The notes under the pieces: model-generated
Told to the model about the DNA's origin: nothing
Database searches by the model: none
Seen by the model: the letters and a program-made list of their open reading frames with translations, nothing else
Part shown: piece after piece, positions 6,437 to 44,490 of the stretch
How the letters are laid out: each line of letters starts with the position of its first letter
Numbering within the stretch: the stretch's first letter is position 1
Made by a program: the position numbers and the translations under genes
Assembly: GCA_031280915.1 (NCBI GenBank)
Contig: JAITGC010000026.1
Span: 1-64,000 of the forward strand
Origin: Desulfovibrio sp.
Lineage (GTDB): Bacteria > Desulfobacterota > Desulfovibrionia > Desulfovibrionales > Desulfovibrionaceae
DNA length: 64,000 nt
Direction: 5' to 3'

Positions 6437-8584
6437 ATGGCACAAGATTCACCTAAAAGAAAATCCAGACGCGGTCGCGTCGCTCTGGCGCTTTTTGTTT
6501 TGCTGGTTATGGGGGCCATGGGCGTGATTGGCGCGGCGGGCATTGTTCTGGACACGAACAGGCAGCGCATTCTCAAAGAGGCGGAGCAGGGCCTGGGTTC
6601 CCGTTCCGCGAACACCGCCGCCAATATCACCGTGTGGGCCGGGCGGACAAAGAGCCAGGTGGAAGACTTTGTTGACCTTGACATGTTGCGTCTTTTTGCC
6701 GCCGAACTCGACAATGCCAAAATATCCGTTGAGCAGATACGGCAGTTGGGCGCGAAAGCCGACAGGGATTTTTCCTCTCCGGCGGAGGCGGATGATGTTG
6801 ATTCGGCATCCGCCGGGCAAGTGACCCTTGCCGTGGACAGAATTATTCTGCATCTGCCCGTGATGCAGAACCAGATCAAGGAGTTCGCGGCAAAAAACGC
6901 TTTTGTGAACGCCGCCCTCCTGAACAGGAATATGGAGGTTTATCTCTCTGCCACCGATGGAGCCACGGCGGCAAGTGAGCACGGGGCATCACTGGAAGCC
7001 GTCTTTACAGGCAAGAGGTCGGTTTTTTTGCCTGTGCGCCTGCACGAGGGCGTTTTGTTGATGGATATGATTTTTCCCGTCGAGGTACCGCCGTATGTGT
7101 CTCCTGACGAATATGTCGTGGCCGCCCTGCTGGTCACTTGCGACGTGACGCGAATACTCAGGGACGTTACCCGGCGCGCCCCGGAGGGAGGGGGCCTTTA
7201 CAATGCCTGCGTCATGCAGGAGCACGGCAAAAATTTGCAGATAATCGCCGAGGGGGTCGGCGGCCCGCAATTGATAGATCTGCCCCACTGGCGTCTTGAG
7301 GCTGACCGCAGTTTGCCTCTGGCCCTGCGTCAGATGCCTGTCGAGCCGGACAAGTCCGTCCAGGTGTATTCCATTGCCATGCCCGTCCCGGATTTGCCCT
7401 GGTATGCGGTGGAAATGCTCAATGCCGGCAAAACCGAAGCCGATTACGCCGACTTTCGCCGGAACGTCATTATTATGGCCGTTCTTTTGATAGCGCTTAT
7501 CGCCATTGTACTCATGGCCCTTTGGTGGTGGGCGCTGGGGCGCCGTGAGCGCGTCATCGCCGAGGAGATGCGGCATCTCTACCAGATGGTCCATCAGCAA
7601 AAGCAGATTATGGACGGCGTGAATTCCGCTCTTTCCGCCGGGATTGTGCTCAATGATCTGAATGGGGTGATATATTACGCCAATCAGAGTTTTGTGCATA
7701 TGACGGGTTTGACGCAGCAGGATTTGAGCGGGCTTTCCTATAAAAATTTAAACGTGGATATGGCCAGGAGCCTTGTGACGCACACCCAGGCTGTATACCA
7801 GTCAAGAAAACTGGCGAGTTTTACCGAAATACTGCCTGTTAGTGGGGGGCAGCGGCATTTCCTCACGTCCTGCTCGCCTTTTCTCAATGAAAAAGGCGAA
7901 TTTCTCGGCGTGGTCTCCGTGTATAACGACATCATGGATCTGGTGATGGCGCAGCGCCGCGCGCAGCATATGGTCACGCAGACCGTGGCCGTCTTCGTCA
8001 GGGCCATCGAAGCTGTGGATCCCTATTTGTGCGGGCAGTCCTCATTCACCGCCAAGCTGGCCGTGGCTCTGGCCCTCCATCTGGACAAAGGCGATGATGT
8101 GACGCTGGCGACATTGCGCACGGCGGCGAGTCTTTCACAGATCGGCATGATTCAACTGCCGAGGGAGTTGCTGACGAAAACCGGAAAATTGAGTGCGGAT
8201 GAGCGGGCCCAGTTGGAAAGGCATGTGGAATACACGCGAGCCGCTCTTGAAGGCATCGACTTCGGCATTCCCGTGCTGGAGGCCATCAGCCAGATGTATG
8301 AACGTATGGACGGCTCAGGGTATCCCATTGGCCTGAAGGACAGCCAGATATCCTTGAACGCCAGAATTCTCGGGGTGGCGAACACATTTTGCGCCTTAAT
8401 GAGGCCGCGCTCCTATCGTTCGGCTTTGGATACGCGGCTGGCGACGGAGATGCTTTCCACAACGCCGCCCAAATACGATCCCGATGTGGTGTCAGCTCTT
8501 ACGGATTTTCTCGGCACGGATCAGGGCCAAGTGTTCTTGCGGCAGCTTGCCGGCGAACGGTCGGATTCTCCGGAACAGACGTAA
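6437..8584 (+). CDS. Membrane sensor with periplasmic domain, PAS domain and degenerate HD-GYP domain
   Basis: 715 aa; two TM segments, PAS-like region, C-terminal ERMDGSGYPIGL; canonical HD ligands substituted. Confidence 0.8.
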   Translation: MAQDSPKRKSRRGRVALALFVLLVMGAMGVIGAAGIVLDTNRQRILKEAEQGLGSRSANTAANITVWAGRTKSQVEDFVDLDMLRLFAAELDNAKISVEQIRQLGAKADRDFSSPAEADDVDSASAGQVTLAVDRIILHLPVMQNQIKEFAAKNAFVNAALLNRNMEVYLSATDGATAASEHGASLEAVFTGKRSVFLPVRLHEGVLLMDMIFPVEVPPYVSPDEYVVAALLVTCDVTRILRDVTRRAPEGGGLYNACVMQEHGKNLQIIAEGVGGPQLIDLPHWRLEADRSLPLALRQMPVEPDKSVQVYSIAMPVPDLPWYAVEMLNAGKTEADYADFRRNVIIMAVLLIALIAIVLMALWWWALGRRERVIAEEMRHLYQMVHQQKQIMDGVNSALSAGIVLNDLNGVIYYANQSFVHMTGLTQQDLSGLSYKNLNVDMARSLVTHTQAVYQSRKLASFTEILPVSGGQRHFLTSCSPFLNEKGEFLGVVSVYNDIMDLVMAQRRAQHMVTQTVAVFVRAIEAVDPYLCGQSSFTAKLAVALALHLDKGDDVTLATLRTAASLSQIGMIQLPRELLTKTGKLSADERAQLERHVEYTRAALEGIDFGIPVLEAISQMYERMDGSGYPIGLKDSQISLNARILGVANTFCALMRPRSYRSALDTRLATEMLSTTPPKYDPDVVSALTDFLGTDQGQVFLRQLAGERSDSPEQT

Positions 8585-30971: not shown

Positions 30972-32030
30972 TTACGGATGCACGATAATTTTGATGTTTT
31001 CGTCCTTGTTGTTTATCAGTTCAAGGAAGCCCTTTTCAATGATGTCCTCCAACTGGATTCTGCCGGTAATGAGCGAATCGGCCTTGAGTTGGCCGCTGGC
31101 CAGCAGGGCGGAAACGCCCTTGAAATCCTCCAGGGTGTAAGCCAGTGTGCCGATAACGCGTTTGTCCGTGCCGCTCAGGCCGAAAAAGTTGAACGCGCTC
31201 GGCTCTTCAAAAATGCCCACGATGACAGCGCGGGCCGTATTCCTGATAAGATCGACAGCCAGAGGCCCCGTGTTTTTGTGACCGACGCACTCAAAGGCGA
31301 CGTCAGCCCCGCTGCCGTTGGTAAGGGCCTTGACTTCGGCCACCACGTCGCATTCCTTGGGATTGAGGATGATATCCGCTCCGCATTCCTTGGCTTTGGT
31401 TATGCGCGCTGCGGACTGCTCCAGCACGATGACTCTGGCCGCGCCGGCCGCCTTGGCCGTCATCAGGGTGCCGAGGCCGATGGTGCCCGCGCCGATGACC
31501 ACCGCCGTCTCGCCGAGGATTGTTCCCGCCATGCGCACGGCCTTGAAGCCCGTCGCCAGCGGTTCGATCACGGCGCCGGCTTCGGGGGAGACTCCTTTCG
31601 GCAGCACATAGCACAGTTGCGCAGGCACATTGACGTATGAGGCGAAGGCGCCGTCGTTGTGCAGGCCGGTGAAGGCCAGCTTTTCGCAGACATTGTATTT
31701 GCCGTCGCGGCACGGCTGGCATTCGCCGCAGTGCTGACAGGCGTCCGGCGCGACCATGTCGCCGATCTTGAGGTTGTTGACGCCTGCCCCGACTTCTACC
31801 ACCGTGCCTGTAAATTCATGGCCCAGAATGAGGCTGCCTTGTTTGCCCGTGAGAGGATGAGGCGCGTTGACGGGAATAAAAATGGGTCCGGCGATGTATT
31901 CGTGCAAATCCGACCCGCATATCCCGCACCAGGCGACCTTGATTTTCACCCAGCCCGGTTGCGGCGACGGCGGCACCGGCACTGTTTCTACTCTGATGTC
32001 TTTCTTGCCATGCCACACCACTGCCCGCAT
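30972..32030 (-). CDS. Zinc-dependent (R,R)-2,3-butanediol dehydrogenase-like alcohol dehydrogenase
   Basis: WCGICGSDLHEYIAGPIFIPVNAPHPLTG (BdhA-like), structural-Zn region CQHCGECQPCRDGKYNVC; RBS GGGAGAG before ATG 32030. Confidence 0.83.
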   Translation of the reverse strand: MRAVVWHGKKDIRVETVPVPPSPQPGWVKIKVAWCGICGSDLHEYIAGPIFIPVNAPHPLTGKQGSLILGHEFTGTVVEVGAGVNNLKIGDMVAPDACQHCGECQPCRDGKYNVCEKLAFTGLHNDGAFASYVNVPAQLCYVLPKGVSPEAGAVIEPLATGFKAVRMAGTILGETAVVIGAGTIGLGTLMTAKAAGAARVIVLEQSAARITKAKECGADIILNPKECDVVAEVKALTNGSGADVAFECVGHKNTGPLAVDLIRNTARAVIVGIFEEPSAFNFFGLSGTDKRVIGTLAYTLEDFKGVSALLASGQLKADSLITGRIQLEDIIEKGFLELINNKDENIKIIVHP

Positions 32031-32111: not shown

Positions 32112-32130
32112 AAGCAATAGTCGTGCCACC
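32112..32130 (-). promoter_or_regulatory. Sigma-54 promoter of the butanediol dehydrogenase gene
   Basis: Minus strand GGTGGCACGACTATTGCTT; TGGCAC-N5-TTGCT, GG-N10-GC. Confidence 0.85.
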
Positions 32131-32244: not shown

Positions 32245-32261
32245 TGTTCCGATTTGAAACA
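32245..32261. promoter_or_regulatory. Putative enhancer-binding-protein site (UAS), one mismatch
   Basis: TGTTCCGATTTGAAACA, cf. TGTTC-N7-GAACA. Confidence 0.6.
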
Positions 32262-32359
32262 GTGAATGAAAAGGCGGCTCAATGCGCGAAATCAGCAATT
32301 TTGTGCCCTGTCCAGACATTGTGACCATGCCCGGCGGCCCTGGCCGGGACTTGTCCAGG

Positions 32360-32376
32360 TGTTCCATTTTCGAACA
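32360..32376. promoter_or_regulatory. Putative enhancer-binding-protein site (UAS)
   Basis: TGTTCCATTTTCGAACA, perfect 5-bp half sites. Confidence 0.72.
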
Positions 32377-32431
32377 ATTTTTATGCGCCGCCGGAACCGT
32401 GGTGCGTCGGTCAATCGCAGTGGGTTGGACA

Positions 32432-32457
32432 GTTGCCTGTCGGCATGGGATTTGCTT
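32432..32457 (+). promoter_or_regulatory. Sigma-54 promoter of the membrane-protein gene
   Basis: GTTGCCTGTCGGCATGGGATTTGCTT; GG 32442-43, GC 32454-55. Confidence 0.82.
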
Positions 32458-32628
32458 GGCGGCAAGGCAGGTATTTGGCGAGAAAGCGCGTGAAGCCCGT
32501 GGAACGCCCGTCAGCGGGAACAAGTGTTGGGCGGCGGCAGGTGGCTGTACAGGTGGCAGTGTTGTTGTTGTTTGGGCAACGGTCCTTTGGCTTGTGACTT
32601 GAAAAATGAATGGGACTGTGTCCGCAAG

Positions 32629-32656
32629 GTGCTTATGATTTGGGGGTTCTAAGCAC
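32629..32656 (+). other. Stem-loop in long 5' leader
   Basis: GTGCTTA ... TAAGCAC with 14-nt loop. Confidence 0.4.
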
Positions 32657-32760
32657 AAAAACCACTTTTTCCGCTGGCCGGCGCCTTGCGGAGCGTAAAG
32701 TGGCAGAGCGGCGCCGTCAGGAAGCATTGTCAGTCATCAAACCGGAATGGAGAGGCGCGT

Positions 32761-33720
32761 ATGATTTTTGACAGCAGTATTCTGAACACGGTGGTACTGG
32801 CCTTTGTGGGCGGCCTTTTCGGCGCGAGCCTGGGTGGTTTGTGGGTTTTCGTGCTTGATGCCCTGCTGGTTCTTCTGGGCTGTATTGTTGTTTTGGCGGG
32901 AGGCTCGGATTTCCTGCTGCTGCAAATAGCCCTGGGGCCTTTGTTCGGCCCCCAGTCAACTTTTTTGGGAGGTTCCATCGCTGCTTCATATGCGGCCGGA
33001 ATCCGAAAAAATCACCCGGGGGGCAGCGGGCGCGACATTATCTCCCCTCTGTTGGACACCTCCTGGGATGTACTGCTGGTCGGCGGCGCAGGAGCAGTGG
33101 TCTGCGCACTGCTGGCCACTGCGGCGCCGCACATTCCCGTATTGAACCGTACCGATACATTGGCCGGGCCAATTATCATTGTGGCCATTATCGGCCGTTT
33201 CCTGTTTCATCGTGAAGGTCCCTGCGGCAAGCTGGCATCCATCAAAAAGCTCGGCCTGCTCGGAACCGACGATTACAAGATTTCCTGGGTACCCTGGATG
33301 GCGCAGCCTTCGCGTCTCCTGATCGTCGGCGCTTCTGTCGGGGGAATTTCCGGCGCGGTGGCCATGTTCTGTCAGCAGACTTTGCAGCCCATGGTTGAGG
33401 CCGGCCGCGTGGCGGCGGTTACGGCCCATATAGTGCCCTATATTTTCTTCTGGGGTGTTTCGGGCATCATGTTGACCGCGATGCAACTGGGCAAGGGCGC
33501 CACCCAGAAAATCCCAATCACCCACGGCATGGCAGTCCTTGGAGCGGCGGCCTATCTGAGCAGTCATTCGTTGGTCATCGCCATTCTCGGCGGTATTTTC
33601 GGCGCGTTTCTTGAAGAACTCTGCGCGCGCTGCTTCATCAATCACGCCAGCGATCACGTGGATCCGCCGGCCTTCGCCATAACCTTGGGCGTTCTGGCGT
33701 ATAGTTTCATTCCCTGGTGA
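32761..33720 (+). CDS. Uncharacterised polytopic membrane protein, candidate acetoin/butanediol transporter
   Basis: 319 aa, many TM stretches; RBS GGAGAGG before ATG 32761; sigma-54 promoter upstream. Confidence 0.7.
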   Translation: MIFDSSILNTVVLAFVGGLFGASLGGLWVFVLDALLVLLGCIVVLAGGSDFLLLQIALGPLFGPQSTFLGGSIAASYAAGIRKNHPGGSGRDIISPLLDTSWDVLLVGGAGAVVCALLATAAPHIPVLNRTDTLAGPIIIVAIIGRFLFHREGPCGKLASIKKLGLLGTDDYKISWVPWMAQPSRLLIVGASVGGISGAVAMFCQQTLQPMVEAGRVAAVTAHIVPYIFFWGVSGIMLTAMQLGKGATQKIPITHGMAVLGAAAYLSSHSLVIAILGGIFGAFLEELCARCFINHASDHVDPPAFAITLGVLAYSFIPW

Positions 33721-33735
33721 GACGCCATGGAGGTC

Positions 33736-33765
33736 AGGCGGCAGCGCCGCAGCGCGCTGCCGCCT
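33736..33765 (+). terminator. Strong hairpin after membrane-protein gene
   Basis: AGGCGGCAGCGC-CGCAGC-GCGCTGCCGCCT; no U-tract immediately after. Confidence 0.5.
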
Positions 33766-33871
33766 CTGGAGAGCGCCGTTCGCTTTTTCGGTATCTCCAC
33801 GAACGGGGGAGGGTGCCCTTGTCGCCCGCGAAAGACCGCGCCCCCTTGCCGTATTCGGGAAAAAAGGAGGG

Positions 33872-33888
33872 TGTTCAGGTTTGGAACA
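33872..33888. promoter_or_regulatory. Putative enhancer-binding-protein site (UAS)
   Basis: TGTTCAGGTTTGGAACA. Confidence 0.68.
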
Positions 33889-34004
33889 GATGACGGACAA
33901 GGTGATGCAATGGCCTGGACAGCCCGGGCGTGGGGCGGGATGCCCGCATGGAGAGGGAGCTTCCCCATGCCAGTCCTTGCACCCGGCGGCCGGAAGGCAA
34001 CCGT

Positions 34005-34021
34005 TGTTCCGTTATCGAACA
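34005..34021. promoter_or_regulatory. Putative enhancer-binding-protein site (UAS)
   Basis: TGTTCCGTTATCGAACA. Confidence 0.72.
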
Positions 34022-34075: not shown

Positions 34076-34101
34076 GTTGGCTGTCGGCATGGGATTTGCT
34101 T
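34076..34101 (+). promoter_or_regulatory. Sigma-54 promoter of the acetoin dehydrogenase operon
   Basis: GTTGGCTGTCGGCATGGGATTTGCTT; GG 34086-87, GC 34098-99; 25/26 identical to 32432-32457. Confidence 0.87.
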
Positions 34102-34159
34102 TGTTTAAATATAAATAACGGTCTGAACGGCAACTGCCCTGAAATGCGGAGGAAAAAAA

Positions 34160-35374
34160 ATGGCCTTTGAAGTGCTTATGCCCAAATGGGGGCTTACCAT
34201 GAAAACAGGGAAGATCGCCCGTTGGAACGCGGTTGAGGGAGACAGCGTGAAGGCCGGCCAGCCTCTGTTGGAAGTGGAAACTGACAAGATTACCAATACT
34301 GTGGAAGCGCCGGCTGATGGTGTGCTCTTTCAGATTGTCGTCCCCGCCGGGGGCGTGGCGCCGGTAATGTCGGTCATCGGGCTGATTGCGGCGGCTGGTG
34401 AAAGTCCGGAGCGCGTGGACGGGCTCGCCGCCCCGGCAGCGGCAACGCAGGCATCCGCCTCCGCCGCGCCCTCGGGAGATGGGCCGAAAGAGGAAAAGGG
34501 CATCCGGGCCATGCCTGTCGCGCGGCGTGTCGCCAAGGAATTGAATATAGCTTTGTCCACTGTGCGGGGCACAGGCCCTGACGGAATTATTACAGAAAAA
34601 GATGTCCGCGCCGCCCATGAATCCGCCAAAGCGGCTCCTGCCGCCTCTGTTCAGCCCGGAACGGAGGCCGGTTCCACAGCGCTGGGCGACACGGTTATTC
34701 CCATGGAGGGCATCCGCAAGCTCATCGCCGACAACATGTTGGCCAGCCTGCAGGGCGCGGCTCAACTTACGGTGTTTGTGGAGGCCGACGTCACGGAAAT
34801 GGCGCTCCTGCGGGAAGCAATGCTGGCCCGCAACAAGAAGGCGGCCGAATACCGCCTGTCGTACAACGATATCATAGCCTATGCCGTCTGCCGGGCCCTG
34901 CTCAAGCACCCGGTCATGAATTCCACCCTGCGGGAAGACGGCATCCATCTGCACGGGCATGTGAACCTGGGCATCGCCGTTTCTCTGGAAAACGGCCTTA
35001 TCGTGCCCAACGTGAAAAATGCCGATACGTTCTCCCTTGAAGAGTTGAAGGAAAAGGTGCGCGACGTCGCCGCCCGCGCCCGCAAAGGCGGCTTGGGTCT
35101 GGAGGAAATCTCCGGCGGAACCTTTACCATTTCCAACGTAAGCATGATGGGCGTTGATGGCTTTACACCCATTCTCAACCCGCCGGAAACGGCCATTCTG
35201 GGCGTCGGACGGGTTGTCGCCAAAGCGGCGGCGTACAGGGGGCAAGTGTGCATACGCCAGATGATGACTTTGTCCCTGACCTTCAATCACATGGTCACCG
35301 ACGGCGGCCCCGCCATGGCTTTTCTGCGCGCTCTGGCGGACATGCTGGAAAACCCGGTAACAATGTTAAGTTAG
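34160..35374 (+). CDS. 2-oxoacid/acetoin dehydrogenase E2 (dihydrolipoamide acyltransferase), copy 1
   Basis: Lipoyl domain VETDKITNTVEAPADGV; E3-binding MPVARRVAKELNIALSTVRGTGPDGIITEKDV; catalytic LTFNHMVTDGGPA. Confidence 0.9.
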   Translation: MAFEVLMPKWGLTMKTGKIARWNAVEGDSVKAGQPLLEVETDKITNTVEAPADGVLFQIVVPAGGVAPVMSVIGLIAAAGESPERVDGLAAPAAATQASASAAPSGDGPKEEKGIRAMPVARRVAKELNIALSTVRGTGPDGIITEKDVRAAHESAKAAPAASVQPGTEAGSTALGDTVIPMEGIRKLIADNMLASLQGAAQLTVFVEADVTEMALLREAMLARNKKAAEYRLSYNDIIAYAVCRALLKHPVMNSTLREDGIHLHGHVNLGIAVSLENGLIVPNVKNADTFSLEELKEKVRDVAARARKGGLGLEEISGGTFTISNVSMMGVDGFTPILNPPETAILGVGRVVAKAAAYRGQVCIRQMMTLSLTFNHMVTDGGPAMAFLRALADMLENPVTMLS

Positions 35375-35386
35375 TGAGGATAGCCT

Positions 35387-35755
35387 ATGGCCTATAAGCG
35401 TTTTGTGGTCGAGTTGGGAACCGGAGCCGATCTGCACGGGGCCGATATGACCAAGGCCGCCGTGCGGGCCGTCCGTGACGCGATATCCCGAAGTTGTCTG
35501 TGCGGCATTATCGAAATACTCGGCCGTCACGATTTCAGGGGAGTGCGCGTTCATGCGGATTTGTCCGTTCCCGAACCGGACAAGGTTGACAGGGATGCTG
35601 TTTTGGCGGCTATTCCCGTGGGAGAAAAATCCCTTGCTGTTTCCGCCGGTGGGCTGCGCGCGCCTGGCATTGAAGTCGCGCGGTTCGGCCCAGGGTCTTC
35701 TGACATTGTGATGGCTTGCGTTGCGCTCACTGTTTCCGTTGAAATTGATGCCTGA
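35387..35755 (+). CDS. Lin0512-family-like conserved protein
   Basis: VVELGTGADLHGADMTKAAVRAVRDAISRSCL..; 122 aa; in operon. Confidence 0.7.
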   Translation: MAYKRFVVELGTGADLHGADMTKAAVRAVRDAISRSCLCGIIEILGRHDFRGVRVHADLSVPEPDKVDRDAVLAAIPVGEKSLAVSAGGLRAPGIEVARFGPGSSDIVMACVALTVSVEIDA

Positions 35756-35791
35756 CGCAAAAAGTATACAACCCTAATGGAGGTGTGGACA

Positions 35792-36754
35792 ATGAAGAGT
35801 CCTGACAAGAAAGTATTGCTGTCTATGTTCGGCACCATGCACAAAATCAGGGCATTTGAAACTGCTTGCCAAGAATTCTTCGCGGCCGGCAAAATCCCTG
35901 GTTTCGTTCATCTGTATCTCGGCGAGGAGGCTGTGGCCACCGGAGCCTGCGCCACCCTGCGGAAAACGGACATGATCACCAGCACCCACCGGGGTCACGG
36001 GCACTGCCTGGCCAAGGGCGGGGATCTCAAGTTCATGATGGCCGAAATTTTCGGCCGCAAGACGGGCTATTGCAAGGGCAAGGGCGGCTCCATGCATATC
36101 GCGGATGTGCATATCGGCATCCTCGGCGCCAACGGAATTGTGGGCGGCGGCGGGCCTTTGGCGGCAGGGGCGGCTCTGAGCAGCAAATACCGCAAAAGCG
36201 ACACCGTCACTGTCTGCTTTTTCGGTGACGGCGCTTCCAACCAGGGTACTACCCAGGAAGCCCTCAACTTGGCCAGCGCATGGAAATTGCCTTTGGTCTT
36301 CATAAATGAAAACAACGGATACGGCATCTCCTGCCCGCAGAGCAAATCCATGGCCATCACGGACATCGCGGATCGCGCCAGCGCCTATGACATGCCTGGC
36401 GTGGTGGTGGACGGCAATGATGTTCTGGCGGTGTATGAAGCCGTCAGCGAGGCGGTCAACCGGGCGCGACAAGGAAAAGGCCCGTCTTTGCTGGAATGCA
36501 AGACATATCGCTGGCGCGGGCATTTTGAAGGCGACCCCACGGTTTACAGGCCCGAATCGGAATTGAAGGAGTGGATGGCCAAGGATCCCATTCCCCGGTT
36601 CGCCAAGAAACTGCTGGATTCCAAGCAGGCCACCCAGGCCGAACTGGACGCCATTGTCGGCGGCGTGAAGAAGGAAGTGGAAGAAGCAGTCGCGTTTGCG
36701 GAAAGCAGTCCCTACCCCGAGCTGGCGGATCTGCTGGAAGATGTGTACGCCTAA
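35792..36754 (+). CDS. Acetoin dehydrogenase E1 component alpha subunit (TPP-dependent)
   Basis: STHRGHGHCLAKG, FFGDGASNQGTTQEALNLASAWKLPLVFINENN; RBS GGAGG before ATG 35792. Confidence 0.92.
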   Translation: MKSPDKKVLLSMFGTMHKIRAFETACQEFFAAGKIPGFVHLYLGEEAVATGACATLRKTDMITSTHRGHGHCLAKGGDLKFMMAEIFGRKTGYCKGKGGSMHIADVHIGILGANGIVGGGGPLAAGAALSSKYRKSDTVTVCFFGDGASNQGTTQEALNLASAWKLPLVFINENNGYGISCPQSKSMAITDIADRASAYDMPGVVVDGNDVLAVYEAVSEAVNRARQGKGPSLLECKTYRWRGHFEGDPTVYRPESELKEWMAKDPIPRFAKKLLDSKQATQAELDAIVGGVKKEVEEAVAFAESSPYPELADLLEDVYA

Positions 36755-36781: not shown

Positions 36782-37753
36782 ATGGCGAAAAAAACATATC
36801 TGCAGGCCCTTAACGAGGCGATGCGGTTGGAAATGGAGCGGGACGCCGACGTCTTTATCATCGGTGAAGACGTGGGCAAGTTCGGCGGGTGCTTTGGAGT
36901 CACGCAGGGGCTGTTTGACAAGTTCGGTTCTGAGCGGGTCATAGACACGCCCATCACCGAAAGCGCCATCGTCGGCGCCGCTGTGGGCTCCGCCGTCAGC
37001 GGCCTGCGTCCCGTCGCCGAGCTTATGTTTGTCGATTTCATAGGTTGCGCGCTGGATCAACTGTTCAACCAGGGCGCGAAAATGCGCTATATGTTTGGCG
37101 GCAAGGCCAAGGTTCCCATGACGTTGCGTATGCCCCAGGGCGCGGGCGTGTGCGCGGCAGCGCAGCATTCTCAGTCGCTTGAGGCGTGGTTCATGCATAT
37201 CCCCGGCATCAAGGTCGCTATTCCCTCCACTCCCTATGACGCCAAGGGTTTGCTCATCTCCGCCATCCGCGAGGACAATCCGGTTATCTTCCTTGAGCAT
37301 AAAATGCTGTATGGCGTTGAGGGAGAAGTGCCCGACGAGAGTTATACCATTCCCTTGGGCAAAGCGGACGTCAAGCGCGAAGGCGCCGACGTCACCGTGG
37401 TGGCGACATCCCGTATGGTTCACAGCGCGCTGGAAGCCGCAGAAACGCTGGCTGCTTCCGGCATCAGCGTTGAGGTGGTGGATCCCCGTTCTCTGCAGCC
37501 TCTTGACAGTGACACCATCGTGGAATCCGTGAAAAAGACCCACGCGCTGGTTGTGGCGCACGAAGCCGTTGGTTTTGCCGGTCCCGGAGCGGAAATAATC
37601 GCGCAGGTGGCTGAAAAGGCTCTGGATTATCTTGACGCTCCCGTCAAGCGCGTCGCGGCGCCTTTCTGCCCTGTGCCCTTTTCGCCGCCGCTGGAGCAGG
37701 CCTTCATCCCCGGAGCGGACGCCATTGTCGCGGCGGTGAAGTCTTTGAGGTAG
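36782..37753 (+). CDS. Acetoin dehydrogenase E1 component beta subunit
   Basis: EDVGKFGGCFGVTQGL, RVIDTPITESAIVGAAVGSAVSGLRPVAELMFVDF, VEVVDPRSLQPLD. Confidence 0.92.
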   Translation: MAKKTYLQALNEAMRLEMERDADVFIIGEDVGKFGGCFGVTQGLFDKFGSERVIDTPITESAIVGAAVGSAVSGLRPVAELMFVDFIGCALDQLFNQGAKMRYMFGGKAKVPMTLRMPQGAGVCAAAQHSQSLEAWFMHIPGIKVAIPSTPYDAKGLLISAIREDNPVIFLEHKMLYGVEGEVPDESYTIPLGKADVKREGADVTVVATSRMVHSALEAAETLAASGISVEVVDPRSLQPLDSDTIVESVKKTHALVVAHEAVGFAGPGAEIIAQVAEKALDYLDAPVKRVAAPFCPVPFSPPLEQAFIPGADAIVAAVKSLR

Positions 37754-37859
37754 TTTTTTGTGGCTTGACGAGTCGATTCCGGTCAGATTCAGCCTTCCGG
37801 CCGGACACGAAACCGGAATTGACTGCGTTTCTTCGGCCATATCCCAGGAGGGAGACGTT

Positions 37860-38849
37860 TTGCTTACAGTGGGCATAATAGCCAATCCCGTCTCGGGCAA
37901 GGACATCCGTCGTCTGGTGGCGTACGGCAGCGTCTTTGATAACCAGGAAAAAGTGCGCATTATACGGCGGATTCTCACAGGACTTGTGGCGGCCGGCGTC
38001 ACCAGGGTCATGTATATGCCCGATTCTCAGTGTATGGTGAGCCGCGCGCTGGAGAACATTGAGGCGCCCATGGAAGTCGAAGAGATGGACATGCACATGG
38101 AGAACACGCAGGACGACAGCATTCACGCCGCAAGAAAAATGGAGGCGGCGGGCGTGAGCGCCATTGTGGTTCTCGGCGGCGACGGCACCAGCCGCGCTGT
38201 GCGCAAGGGCGCCCCCAATACGCCGCTGCTTCCGGTCTCCACCGGCACGAACAATGTCTTCCCCGCTATGATGGAAGCCACCGTCGCGGGGCTGGCGGCC
38301 GGCATAGTGGCGACAGGGCGATTTCCCCTTGAGCGGACATGCTGTCGCGCCTCCATACTCGACGTTTACATTGACGGCGAGGCGGTTGATATCGCCCTGG
38401 TGGACGTGGCGGTATATGACGGCATGTTTACGGGGTCCAGAGCCGTCTGGGACATGGATATGGTGCCCCAGGTCTTCTTCTCTCGCTGCAGGGCGGATGT
38501 CATCGGCATGTCGGCCGTCGGCGGGCAGTTGGAAAGGATCCTGCCTGAAGAACCGCGCGGACTCGCTTTGGATCTGTGCCCCCCATCGACGGATGTGCCG
38601 GTGGTCACCGCCGCTATCGCGCCTGGGCGTTTTGCCAGCGTCGGCATCATGCGGCGTGTGGAAATGCTCCCCGGCCAGGATTGTCCTGTGACCATCTCCC
38701 CATGCCTTTTGGCTGTGGATGGAGAAAGAGAAGTCGAGGTGGGCGAGGGGAGGCGGGCTTCGGTGCGCCTCAATCCGGACGGGGTGTGGGTGATTGATGT
38801 CCCTAAAGTCATGGAACTTGCCCGTAGCGCAGGTTTTTTCGTTTCCTGA
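37860..38849 (+). CDS. acoX: AcoX / ATP-NAD kinase-family protein
   Basis: VGIIANPVSGKDIRRLVA, VVLGGDGTSRAVRKG, PVSTGTNNVFP; TTG start with AGGAGGGA RBS (longer ORF begins 37758). Confidence 0.82.
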   Translation: MLTVGIIANPVSGKDIRRLVAYGSVFDNQEKVRIIRRILTGLVAAGVTRVMYMPDSQCMVSRALENIEAPMEVEEMDMHMENTQDDSIHAARKMEAAGVSAIVVLGGDGTSRAVRKGAPNTPLLPVSTGTNNVFPAMMEATVAGLAAGIVATGRFPLERTCCRASILDVYIDGEAVDIALVDVAVYDGMFTGSRAVWDMDMVPQVFFSRCRADVIGMSAVGGQLERILPEEPRGLALDLCPPSTDVPVVTAAIAPGRFASVGIMRRVEMLPGQDCPVTISPCLLAVDGEREVEVGEGRRASVRLNPDGVWVIDVPKVMELARSAGFFVS

Positions 38850-39180: not shown

Positions 39181-39203
39181 CGTCAAAATAACGTGAGGTG
39201 ACT

Positions 39204-39983
39204 ATGAGCATCAATGGAAAAGTGGCCCTGATTACAGGGGCTGCCCAAGGTATCGGTCGTGGCATTGCGCTTCGTCTCGCCAAGGACGGAGCGGACATCG
39301 CCCTTGTAGACGTCAAAGGGGACAGGTTGGAGGCCGTGGCCAAAGAGATTAAGGCGTTAGGCCGCAAGGCCGCCACATTTGTGGGCGACGTCAGTGATCG
39401 TGACAAGGTCTTTGCCGCTGTGAATCACGCGGAAAAAGAACTCGGCGGTTTCGATATCATGATCAACAACGCCGGCATTCAGCAAACCAAACCTTTTTCT
39501 GAAGTGACGCCTGAAGATGTTGAGCGTATCTTCAAAATTAACGTCAATGGCGTGATCTGGGGCATTCAGGCCGCCGCCGCGAAATTCCGTTCCCGCAAAC
39601 AAAAGGGCAAGATTATCAGTGCGTCCTCTATTGCGGGGCACGACGGTTTTGCCATGCTCAGCATGTACAGCGCCACCAAGTTCGCCGTACGCGCCCTCAC
39701 GCAGGCGGCGGCCCGCGAGTATGCAGCCGAGGGCATCACTGTCAACGCCTATTGTCCCGGTGTTGTCGATACCCCGATGTGGGAGGAGATTGATCAGAAT
39801 TTCTCCAAAATTACCGGCGCGGCCAAGGGTGAGACCTTCAAGCAGTATTGCGGCACCATCGCTCTCGGACGTCCTGAAGTGCCTGAAGACGTGGCGGCTT
39901 TTGTATCTTATCTGGCCGGTCCCGATTCCGATTATATGACGGGCCAGTCTGTGCTTATTGACGGCGGCATGGTTTACCGTTGA
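39204..39983 (+). CDS. Short-chain dehydrogenase, acetoin reductase / meso-2,3-butanediol dehydrogenase-like
   Basis: ALITGAAQGIGRGIALRLA, NNAGIQQTKPF, YSATKFAVRALTQAAARE, YCPGVVDTPMWEEID; start 39198 GTG also possible. Confidence 0.85.
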   Translation: MSINGKVALITGAAQGIGRGIALRLAKDGADIALVDVKGDRLEAVAKEIKALGRKAATFVGDVSDRDKVFAAVNHAEKELGGFDIMINNAGIQQTKPFSEVTPEDVERIFKINVNGVIWGIQAAAAKFRSRKQKGKIISASSIAGHDGFAMLSMYSATKFAVRALTQAAAREYAAEGITVNAYCPGVVDTPMWEEIDQNFSKITGAAKGETFKQYCGTIALGRPEVPEDVAAFVSYLAGPDSDYMTGQSVLIDGGMVYR

Positions 39984-42834: not shown

Positions 42835-42906
42835 ACGAAGACGCGGCGAAAACAGTGGAGCGTCCTTACGTTATGTACAAGATAGACAAATTTGAGGATA
42901 CGGTCA

Positions 42907-44490
42907 GTGAAGCTTGACGTCATTCACATGGGGCGGCAGGATTACGGGCAGGCCCTTGAAGCGCAGAAGCGTCAGGTGGAAGAACGCATTGCCGGCAGGG
43001 TGAACGATACGCTTTTCCTTGTTGAGCATCCGCCGGTGCTGACGCAGGGGCGTAGCGGCGAAGCGGCTGATGTTTTGGTCAGCGCCGAGGATCTGCAGCG
43101 TCAGGGCGTGGAAGTTTTCCACGTTGAGCGCGGCGGCAAAGTGACCTTCCACGGGCCTGGCCAGTTGGTGGCGTATCCTGTCATCTTGTTGCGCGACAAG
43201 GATTTGCACGAATATCTGCGCAAACTTCTGGACGTGACAGCCGCGGTATTGCGCGCCTGCGGGCTGTGTCCCGAACTGGGGGTTCATGGCCCGGGCGTAT
43301 GGGTCAACGGGGCAAAGATCGCCAGCGTGGGAATGGCCGTACGCAAATGGGTGACGTTTCATGGAGTTGCCGTCAATGTTTCCACTGATCTGGACTTTTT
43401 CCGATTGATAAACCCGTGCGGATTCGCGGGAGAAAGGGTGACTTCCGTGCAGCGCGAACTGGCCGGAACCGCCAAAACCTGTCCCGATCTGGAAGAAATG
43501 GGGGCCTTGTTCGTGGCTGAATTCCGCCGGGCCTTCAGGTATGCCAGGTATGCGGACAAGGACGAACGCCGTCCGCCCCGGCTGGAAAGGCCCTCGTGGT
43601 TGCGGGTAAGCGCCCCGGTGGCCGAAGCGATGGACAGTATGGAGCGATTGCTGGACAGGCTGGAATTGGAGACGGTGTGCCAGCAGGCGGAATGTCCCAA
43701 TATGGGTGAATGTTTTTCCGCAAGAACCTCAACGTTTATGATTCTCGGCGCTGTTTGCACACGGGGATGCAGATACTGCGCGGTGGGCAAGGGAGTGCCG
43801 CAGCCTGTGGACCCCGGCGAACCCGAAAGGGTCGCGCGCGCCGTACAGGCTCTGGGGTTGCGGCATGCCGTCATTACCTCCGTCACCCGCGATGACCTGC
43901 CGGACGGAGGCGCGGAACACTTCGTGCGGGTCGTGGACGCCGTGCGTTCCCATTGTCCGGGTGTTTCGTTGGAAATTCTCGTGCCGGATTTCGCCGGGAA
44001 CATGTCGGCCGTTCGCCGGGTATGCCAGGCGCGGCCATCGGTGTTCAATCATAATATTGAAACTGTCAGGCGTCTTTTCCCTGTCATACGCCCCATGGCC
44101 GACTATGATCGCTCTTTGAGGATACTGCGGCGTGCTGCGGACGAGGGTTTGTCCGTGAAATCGGGCATCATGCTCGGACTCGGAGAAACAGAGGACGAAA
44201 TTTTCGCCGCTCTGACCGATATCCGTGACGCCGGCTGCCGCACCGTGACGCTCGGTCAATATCTTGCTCCGAGTTCCGCGCATCAGGCTGTCGTCCGGTA
44301 TGTCACGCCCGGGGAATTTGCCCGCTGGGCGGAACAGGCCCGCATGATGGGTTTTGCCGGCGTCGCTTCCGGCCCCTTGGTGCGCAGTTCATACCGTGCC
44401 CAGGAAATGTATGAACGCGAAAATGAAATACCGCTGTCTCCGCTACGGCGGGAGATGCCTCTTCTTCATCTGCACGAAGGAGCTGCATGA
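42907..44490 (+). CDS. LipB-LipA fusion: octanoyltransferase plus lipoyl synthase
   Basis: N-term VEHPPVLTQGRSG, RGGKVTFHGPGQLVAYP, NGAKIASVGMAVRKWVTFHGVAVN, INPCG; C-term CQQAECPNMGEC, CTRGCRYC, GLGETEDEI, VRSSYRA; one uninterrupted frame; GTG start after TTGAGGA. Confidence 0.9.
   Translation: MKLDVIHMGRQDYGQALEAQKRQVEERIAGRVNDTLFLVEHPPVLTQGRSGEAADVLVSAEDLQRQGVEVFHVERGGKVTFHGPGQLVAYPVILLRDKDLHEYLRKLLDVTAAVLRACGLCPELGVHGPGVWVNGAKIASVGMAVRKWVTFHGVAVNVSTDLDFFRLINPCGFAGERVTSVQRELAGTAKTCPDLEEMGALFVAEFRRAFRYARYADKDERRPPRLERPSWLRVSAPVAEAMDSMERLLDRLELETVCQQAECPNMGECFSARTSTFMILGAVCTRGCRYCAVGKGVPQPVDPGEPERVARAVQALGLRHAVITSVTRDDLPDGGAEHFVRVVDAVRSHCPGVSLEILVPDFAGNMSAVRRVCQARPSVFNHNIETVRRLFPVIRPMADYDRSLRILRRAADEGLSVKSGIMLGLGETEDEIFAALTDIRDAGCRTVTLGQYLAPSSAHQAVVRYVTPGEFARWAEQARMMGFAGVASGPLVRSSYRAQEMYERENEIPLSPLRREMPLLHLHEGAA

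Follow-up and report, generated by a model that had tools for sequence, protein, structure and literature searches.

TGTTC-N7-GAACA palindromes as probable upstream activating sequences of an unlinked AcoR at a Desulfovibrio acetoin locus

The acetoin locus and its σ54 promoters

The window, a 64,000-nucleotide stretch of Desulfovibrio sp. DNA (contig JAITGC010000026.1, positions 1 to 64,000), carries an acetoin locus of three transcription units, namely a bdh gene, a gene for a putative channel and an aco operon, each with a σ54 promoter. The bdh product, encoded on the minus strand (30972..32030), is a 2,3-butanediol dehydrogenase-like zinc alcohol dehydrogenase (PF08240, PF00107), and genes 73-82% identical to it adjoin aco/acoR in relatives. 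On the plus strand, the aco operon runs in the order E2, Lin0512, E1 alpha, E1 beta, acoX, DUF6506, acetoin reductase, second E2, E3 and a LipB-LipA fusion. It opens with the E2 dihydrolipoyl acyltransferase (34160..35374; PF00198, PF00364, PF02817), followed by the Lin0512-family protein (35387..35755; PF09585), the acoA-type E1 alpha subunit (35777..36754; PF00676), the acoB-type E1 beta subunit (36782..37753; PF02779, PF02780), the acoX-type protein (37758..38849; PF01513, PF00781) and, farther downstream, an acetoin/diacetyl reductase of the SDR type (39198..39983; TIGR02415 acetoin reductase, 366.7 bits over a cut-off of 304). It is the joint presence of E1 alpha and beta, E2, E3 and acoX together with acetoin and butanediol dehydrogenases that marks the cluster as an aco operon. 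At its end (42892-44490), LipB-like and lipoyl synthase (LipA) domains are joined, in this order, in one open frame.

Between these two units lies the gene for a multi-pass membrane protein (32761..33720, plus strand), a putative acetoin/butanediol channel whose sequence has no match in Pfam or NCBIfam. Relatives 47-79% identical to it occur in Pelobacter-like and other genomes, and the protein is rare, with six relatives among 85,462 genomes in a scan for close relatives only. The closest (79%, locus L018 of a Deltaproteobacteria MAG) stands alone beside a two-component system, without the palindrome described below, and is thus uninformative on the site. The aco cluster of P. carbinolicus includes a multitransmembrane protein proposed as an acetoin/butanediol channel (PMC3543383), and we infer that the membrane protein of the window is its counterpart.

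The bdh promoter (32113..32128, minus strand) is the perfect consensus TGGCACGACTATTGCT, and those of the channel gene (32441..32456, plus strand) and the aco operon (34085..34100, plus strand) both read CGGCATGGGATTTGCT. The latter two share an identical 21-nt core, CTGTCGGCATGGGATTTGCTT (32438-32458 and 34082-34102), the normally variable spacer included.

Palindromes in the window and across the family

The original prediction described a four-copy palindrome, TGTTC-N7-GAACA, upstream of these promoters. All four copies lie where it placed them, and three are exact; the fourth, the distal site of the bdh/channel intergenic region (32245..32261, TGTTCCGATTTGAAACA), is a near copy with one mismatch, its right half reading AAACA. 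The proximal site of the channel promoter (32360..32376, TGTTCCATTTTCGAACA) and that of the aco operon (34005..34021, TGTTCCGTTATCGAACA) are both exact and begin 82 and 81 nt, respectively, before the promoter GG at 32442 and 34086, which reproduces the distances first proposed. As also predicted, each plus-strand promoter has a second site farther upstream, at 32245 and, for the aco operon, at 33872..33888 (TGTTCAGGTTTGGAACA, exact, with a 17-mer identical to the one preceding the aco operon of genome G071). The first pair further lies, as claimed, upstream of the divergent bdh promoter, the perfect consensus read from 32128 to 32113, with 134 nt separating the 32245 site from the minus-strand GG, compared with the ~124 nt at which a site mostly precedes the bdh promoter in relatives of the same genus. 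All these distances (82, 81 and 134/249 nt) fall within the 70-250 nt at which palindromes serving as σ54 upstream activating sequences lie, at conserved spacing, from their promoters. Within the aco pair the sites are 133 nt apart, against ~103 nt usual outside the genus.

Motif matches with at most one mismatch number eight in the window against 1.62 expected, a count reached in 0/100 shuffles, and four sites, three of them exact, fall in the intergenic stretches separating the three transcription units (1,175 nt in all), either count being reached in 0/5,000 shuffles. Aligned with each other, the regulatory regions of the channel gene and the aco operon score 48.5 against a shuffle maximum of 32; once sites and cores are masked, the score falls to chance (19.0 against a shuffle mean of 18.4), so that only the sites and the 21-nt promoter core are common to two otherwise unrelated upstream regions. 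We accordingly reject the idea that the regulatory region was recently duplicated as a segment.

The prediction was to be abandoned if the motif proved to occur at background frequency throughout the genome, here a MAG of 87% completeness, and it withstood the corresponding scan with the 17-mer. Exact sites number five genome-wide: the two beyond the locus (window position 6544 and contig 41:15869) lie inside open reading frames, and every intergenic exact site falls within the acetoin locus. When sites with a σ54 core 50-130 nt farther on were sought across the genome, 32360 and 34005 alone were returned, together with an overlapping reverse-strand reading of 32360, and the genome's 19 other strong consensus σ54 promoters lack any site of one mismatch or fewer within 400 nt.

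Further evidence comes from a search with the E2 protein across 288 genomes belonging to the family, from which the loci were fetched; 47 of these loci have an E2 start and were counted. A site with at most one mismatch lies 78-84 nt before the σ54 GG of the E2 promoter in 42/47 aco loci, a count that takes in G244, whose site was located beyond the 450-nt scan window; the remaining five have a one-mismatch site at 68 nt and an exact site at 103-105 nt. In most loci outside the genus a second site follows ~103 nt farther upstream. Upstream of E2, 21 kb of sequence hold 64 exact sites, versus 32 in the other 810 kb of these loci; some of the 32 precede bdh, which in relatives also has a site. 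Across loci the half-sites are nearly invariant and the seven central bases variable, which is the appearance expected of an operator for a dimeric protein.

These comparisons bear on whether the palindromes might have arisen by chance or serve another role, as RNA hairpins or as the operator of a σ70 repressor. Short palindromes are indeed common in genomes, and sites with at most one mismatch number 65 genome-wide versus 45 for a reversed control; the confinement of exact intergenic sites to the acetoin locus and, in 47 loci, the conserved spacing to σ54 promoters around a variable 7-nt centre nevertheless make such an origin extremely improbable, and the comparative data in effect refute it.

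The family loci also point to the class of regulator: in nearly all relatives a gene for an AcoR-type enhancer-binding protein is divergent from E2, 320-860 nt away, so that the sites there stand between regulator and target. In these genomes acoR lies between bdh and E2, a place taken in the window by the channel gene, and no acoR remnant was found between bdh and the aco operon.

An orphan AcoR with a matching recognition helix

No σ54 activator domain was found anywhere on the window's 72-kb contig, which bears out, and extends beyond the window, the earlier statement that no GAFTGA-bearing enhancer-binding protein is encoded there. The regulator was expected elsewhere, and among the 15 clear σ54 activators of the genome, which has one rpoN gene, there is a single AcoR-type protein, unlinked to the locus: an intact gene for a 685-aa protein on contig 51 (G000:C51:16294-18351; L054:8295-10352). 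Its neighbors are unrelated to acetoin, with an AMIN-like gene on one side, glmM on the other and proC and ftsH nearby (names from inspection of translations), and no TGTTC-N7-GAACA site was found beside it. Linkage to an aco operon is usual in relatives, yet it is not what defines a protein as AcoR.

In the protein itself the catalytic motifs are intact. Its σ54-interaction domain scores 222.5 bits against PF00158, with GAFTGA, GETGTGKE and GTLFLDE present and the Walker motifs intact, and its C-terminal Fis-type helix-turn-helix (HTH) is likewise intact (PF02954, 45.4 bits). The last helix, the recognition helix, reads ALGIGRNTLYAK, equal to that of the linked AcoRs and absent from all other enhancer-binding proteins of the genome whose C-terminus was read. 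The N-terminus has no Pfam GAF match at E<=0.001; over the first 200 residues, identity to linked AcoRs is 37-48%, the sensor motifs are conserved and the protein co-aligns with them over its full length. A tree that leaves out the HTH places it inside a clade of 35 linked AcoRs (SH-aLRT 99), on a long branch (1.32) and nearest to G160 rather than to its own genus, which may reflect separate acquisition or relocation of the gene, or drift of its sensor. Plasmid sequences yielded no close AcoR relative at 1e-80 and, at 1e-30, only distant enhancer-binding proteins.

The match between helix and site extends well beyond this genome. Exact sites lie within 1.5 kb of 31/34 AcoR-family genes with the L-G-I-G-R-N-T-L-Y helix and near none of the 26 with other helices, although these 60 genes are related by descent and not independent of phylogeny, which makes the Fisher value indicative only. 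The same association of helix and motif appears in a phylum sample outside the family. We consider it possible, and put it forward tentatively, that TGTTC-N7-GAACA serves as operator to a distinct, phylum-wide AcoR subfamily that can be read from the helix ALGIGRNTLYxK. In this lineage the regulator would then have been detached from its operon and replaced there by a channel gene carrying a promoter-core copy of its own, and the sensor would be moving toward a different signal.

Together, the sites, their spacing and conservation, the shared recognition helix and the one candidate gene, all obtained by computation, lead us to conclude that the four palindromes are very probably upstream activating sequences of the AcoR encoded on contig 51, acting with σ54. 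The binding site of an unlinked AcoR-like σ54 activator that had been proposed for the locus thus gains support from the conserved motif and spacing, the acoR linkage of relatives and the helix. The sites could in principle be real and yet be served by another of the ~14 enhancer-binding proteins, or by an acoR of the linked type that escaped assembly, the contig 51 gene regulating something else: the latter is unlinked, has no adjacent site and sits on a long branch, and in an assembly that is 87% complete a second acoR could be missing. We regard this as very unlikely, since the contig 51 AcoR is the only enhancer-binding protein here, among those read, with the ALGIGRNTLYAK helix, the assembled genome offers it no other combination of TGTTCN7GAACA and σ54 promoter to serve, and both sites and helix are intact.

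A separate question is which signal the orphan answers. Compared with linked AcoRs, its identity is 37-48% in the sensor and 21-37% in the linker/PAS region, less well kept than the 53-68% of the AAA and 52-66% of the HTH domains, and the low linker/PAS identity and long branch imply that the signal may differ. AcoR would then bind the sites while responding to another diol or ketone, or act constitutively, a variant of the main explanation that is compatible with it and that we hold to be unlikely: the sensor divergence is only modestly above that seen when linked AcoRs from separate genera are compared (about 44-63% identity), and the targets are still all acetoin and butanediol genes.

Predicted control and relation to known AcoR systems

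With the contig 51 AcoR as the regulator, the expected course of events follows from what is known of its family, from which binding, inducer, looping and induction are all inferred. AcoR dimers would hold the TGTTC and GAACA half-sites through their Fis-type helix-turn-helix, and the N-terminal domain would sense the inducer, probably acetoin itself or a C4 compound related to it. Sensing would promote ring formation by the AAA+ domains, and the ring, by looping of the intervening DNA, would contact the σ54 polymerase waiting ~80 nt away and thereby open the three promoters, that of bdh on the minus strand and those of the membrane-channel gene and the aco operon.

Such control resembles that by AcoR and σL in Bacillus (B. 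subtilis, B. thuringiensis), where the target, too, is an acetoin dehydrogenase operon with a σ54-type promoter, controlled by an AcoR-family enhancer-binding protein. The site reported for AcoR in Bacillus is GACAAAACGAGACAGATGTCTCATTTTGTC (Peng et al. 2020, as quoted in PMC12648084), whereas the operator of the window, TGTTC-N7-GAACA, is another palindrome, usually paired, and its regulator gene is unlinked. In Clostridiales, too, AcoR is predicted to control acoABCL through σ54, but its motif is there among the distinct ones, outside the TGT/ACA group (PMC6615313). A parallel in sequence comes from what is presumably the same bacterial group: in the σ54 regulome of D. vulgaris Hildenborough, several enhancer-binding protein motifs consist of TGT and ACA half-sites 9, 11 or 12 bp apart, and TGTTC-N7-GAACA corresponds to TGT-N11-ACA; the main text of that study makes no mention of acetoin, AcoR or butanediol (PMC4641369). 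Pelobacter carbinolicus has an aco cluster with butanediol dehydrogenase, acoR and a multi-pass membrane protein, but there acoR1 lies inside the cluster and is one of three AcoR paralogues, and no description of an operator was found (PMC3543383).

A published TGTTCN7GAACA operator of AcoR was not found in the open-access literature. AcoR/σ54 control of aco operons is already known (Bacillus) or predicted (Clostridiales), with other operators, and the finding therefore adds to a known kind of switch: that of the window is clear, well supported and fairly ordinary. It provides, for AcoR-type regulators of sulfate-reducing bacteria and their kin, a usable operator and a rule leading from helix to site, together with a target set for an orphan regulator that linkage alone would miss, and a means of testing acetoin and 2,3-butanediol use in sulfate reducers with simple reporters.

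The comparison of loci also brought up sites in other settings. In G126 (L186:5968-6086) an exact TGTTCN7GAACA lies ~103 nt before the perfect σ54 promoter of a small, secreted-looking gene and next to a ZraR-like response regulator whose helix differs; AcoR may thus not be alone in using the motif. Two adjacent sites 18 bp apart, the first TGTTCN7GAACA-like and the second TGATCN7GAACA, occur downstream of the aco operon at L172:12343-12377 and at the equivalent position in L175, L177, L178, L179, L181 and L182, ~78 nt from a minus-strand σ54 promoter, and likely mark a further regulon member in two other genera. Finally, the aco cluster of G160 (L146:10700-12640) contains a ThiC-like gene, with an extra site and σ54 promoter before the acetoin reductase, an arrangement which suggests a link there between thiamine synthesis and the acetoin regulon.
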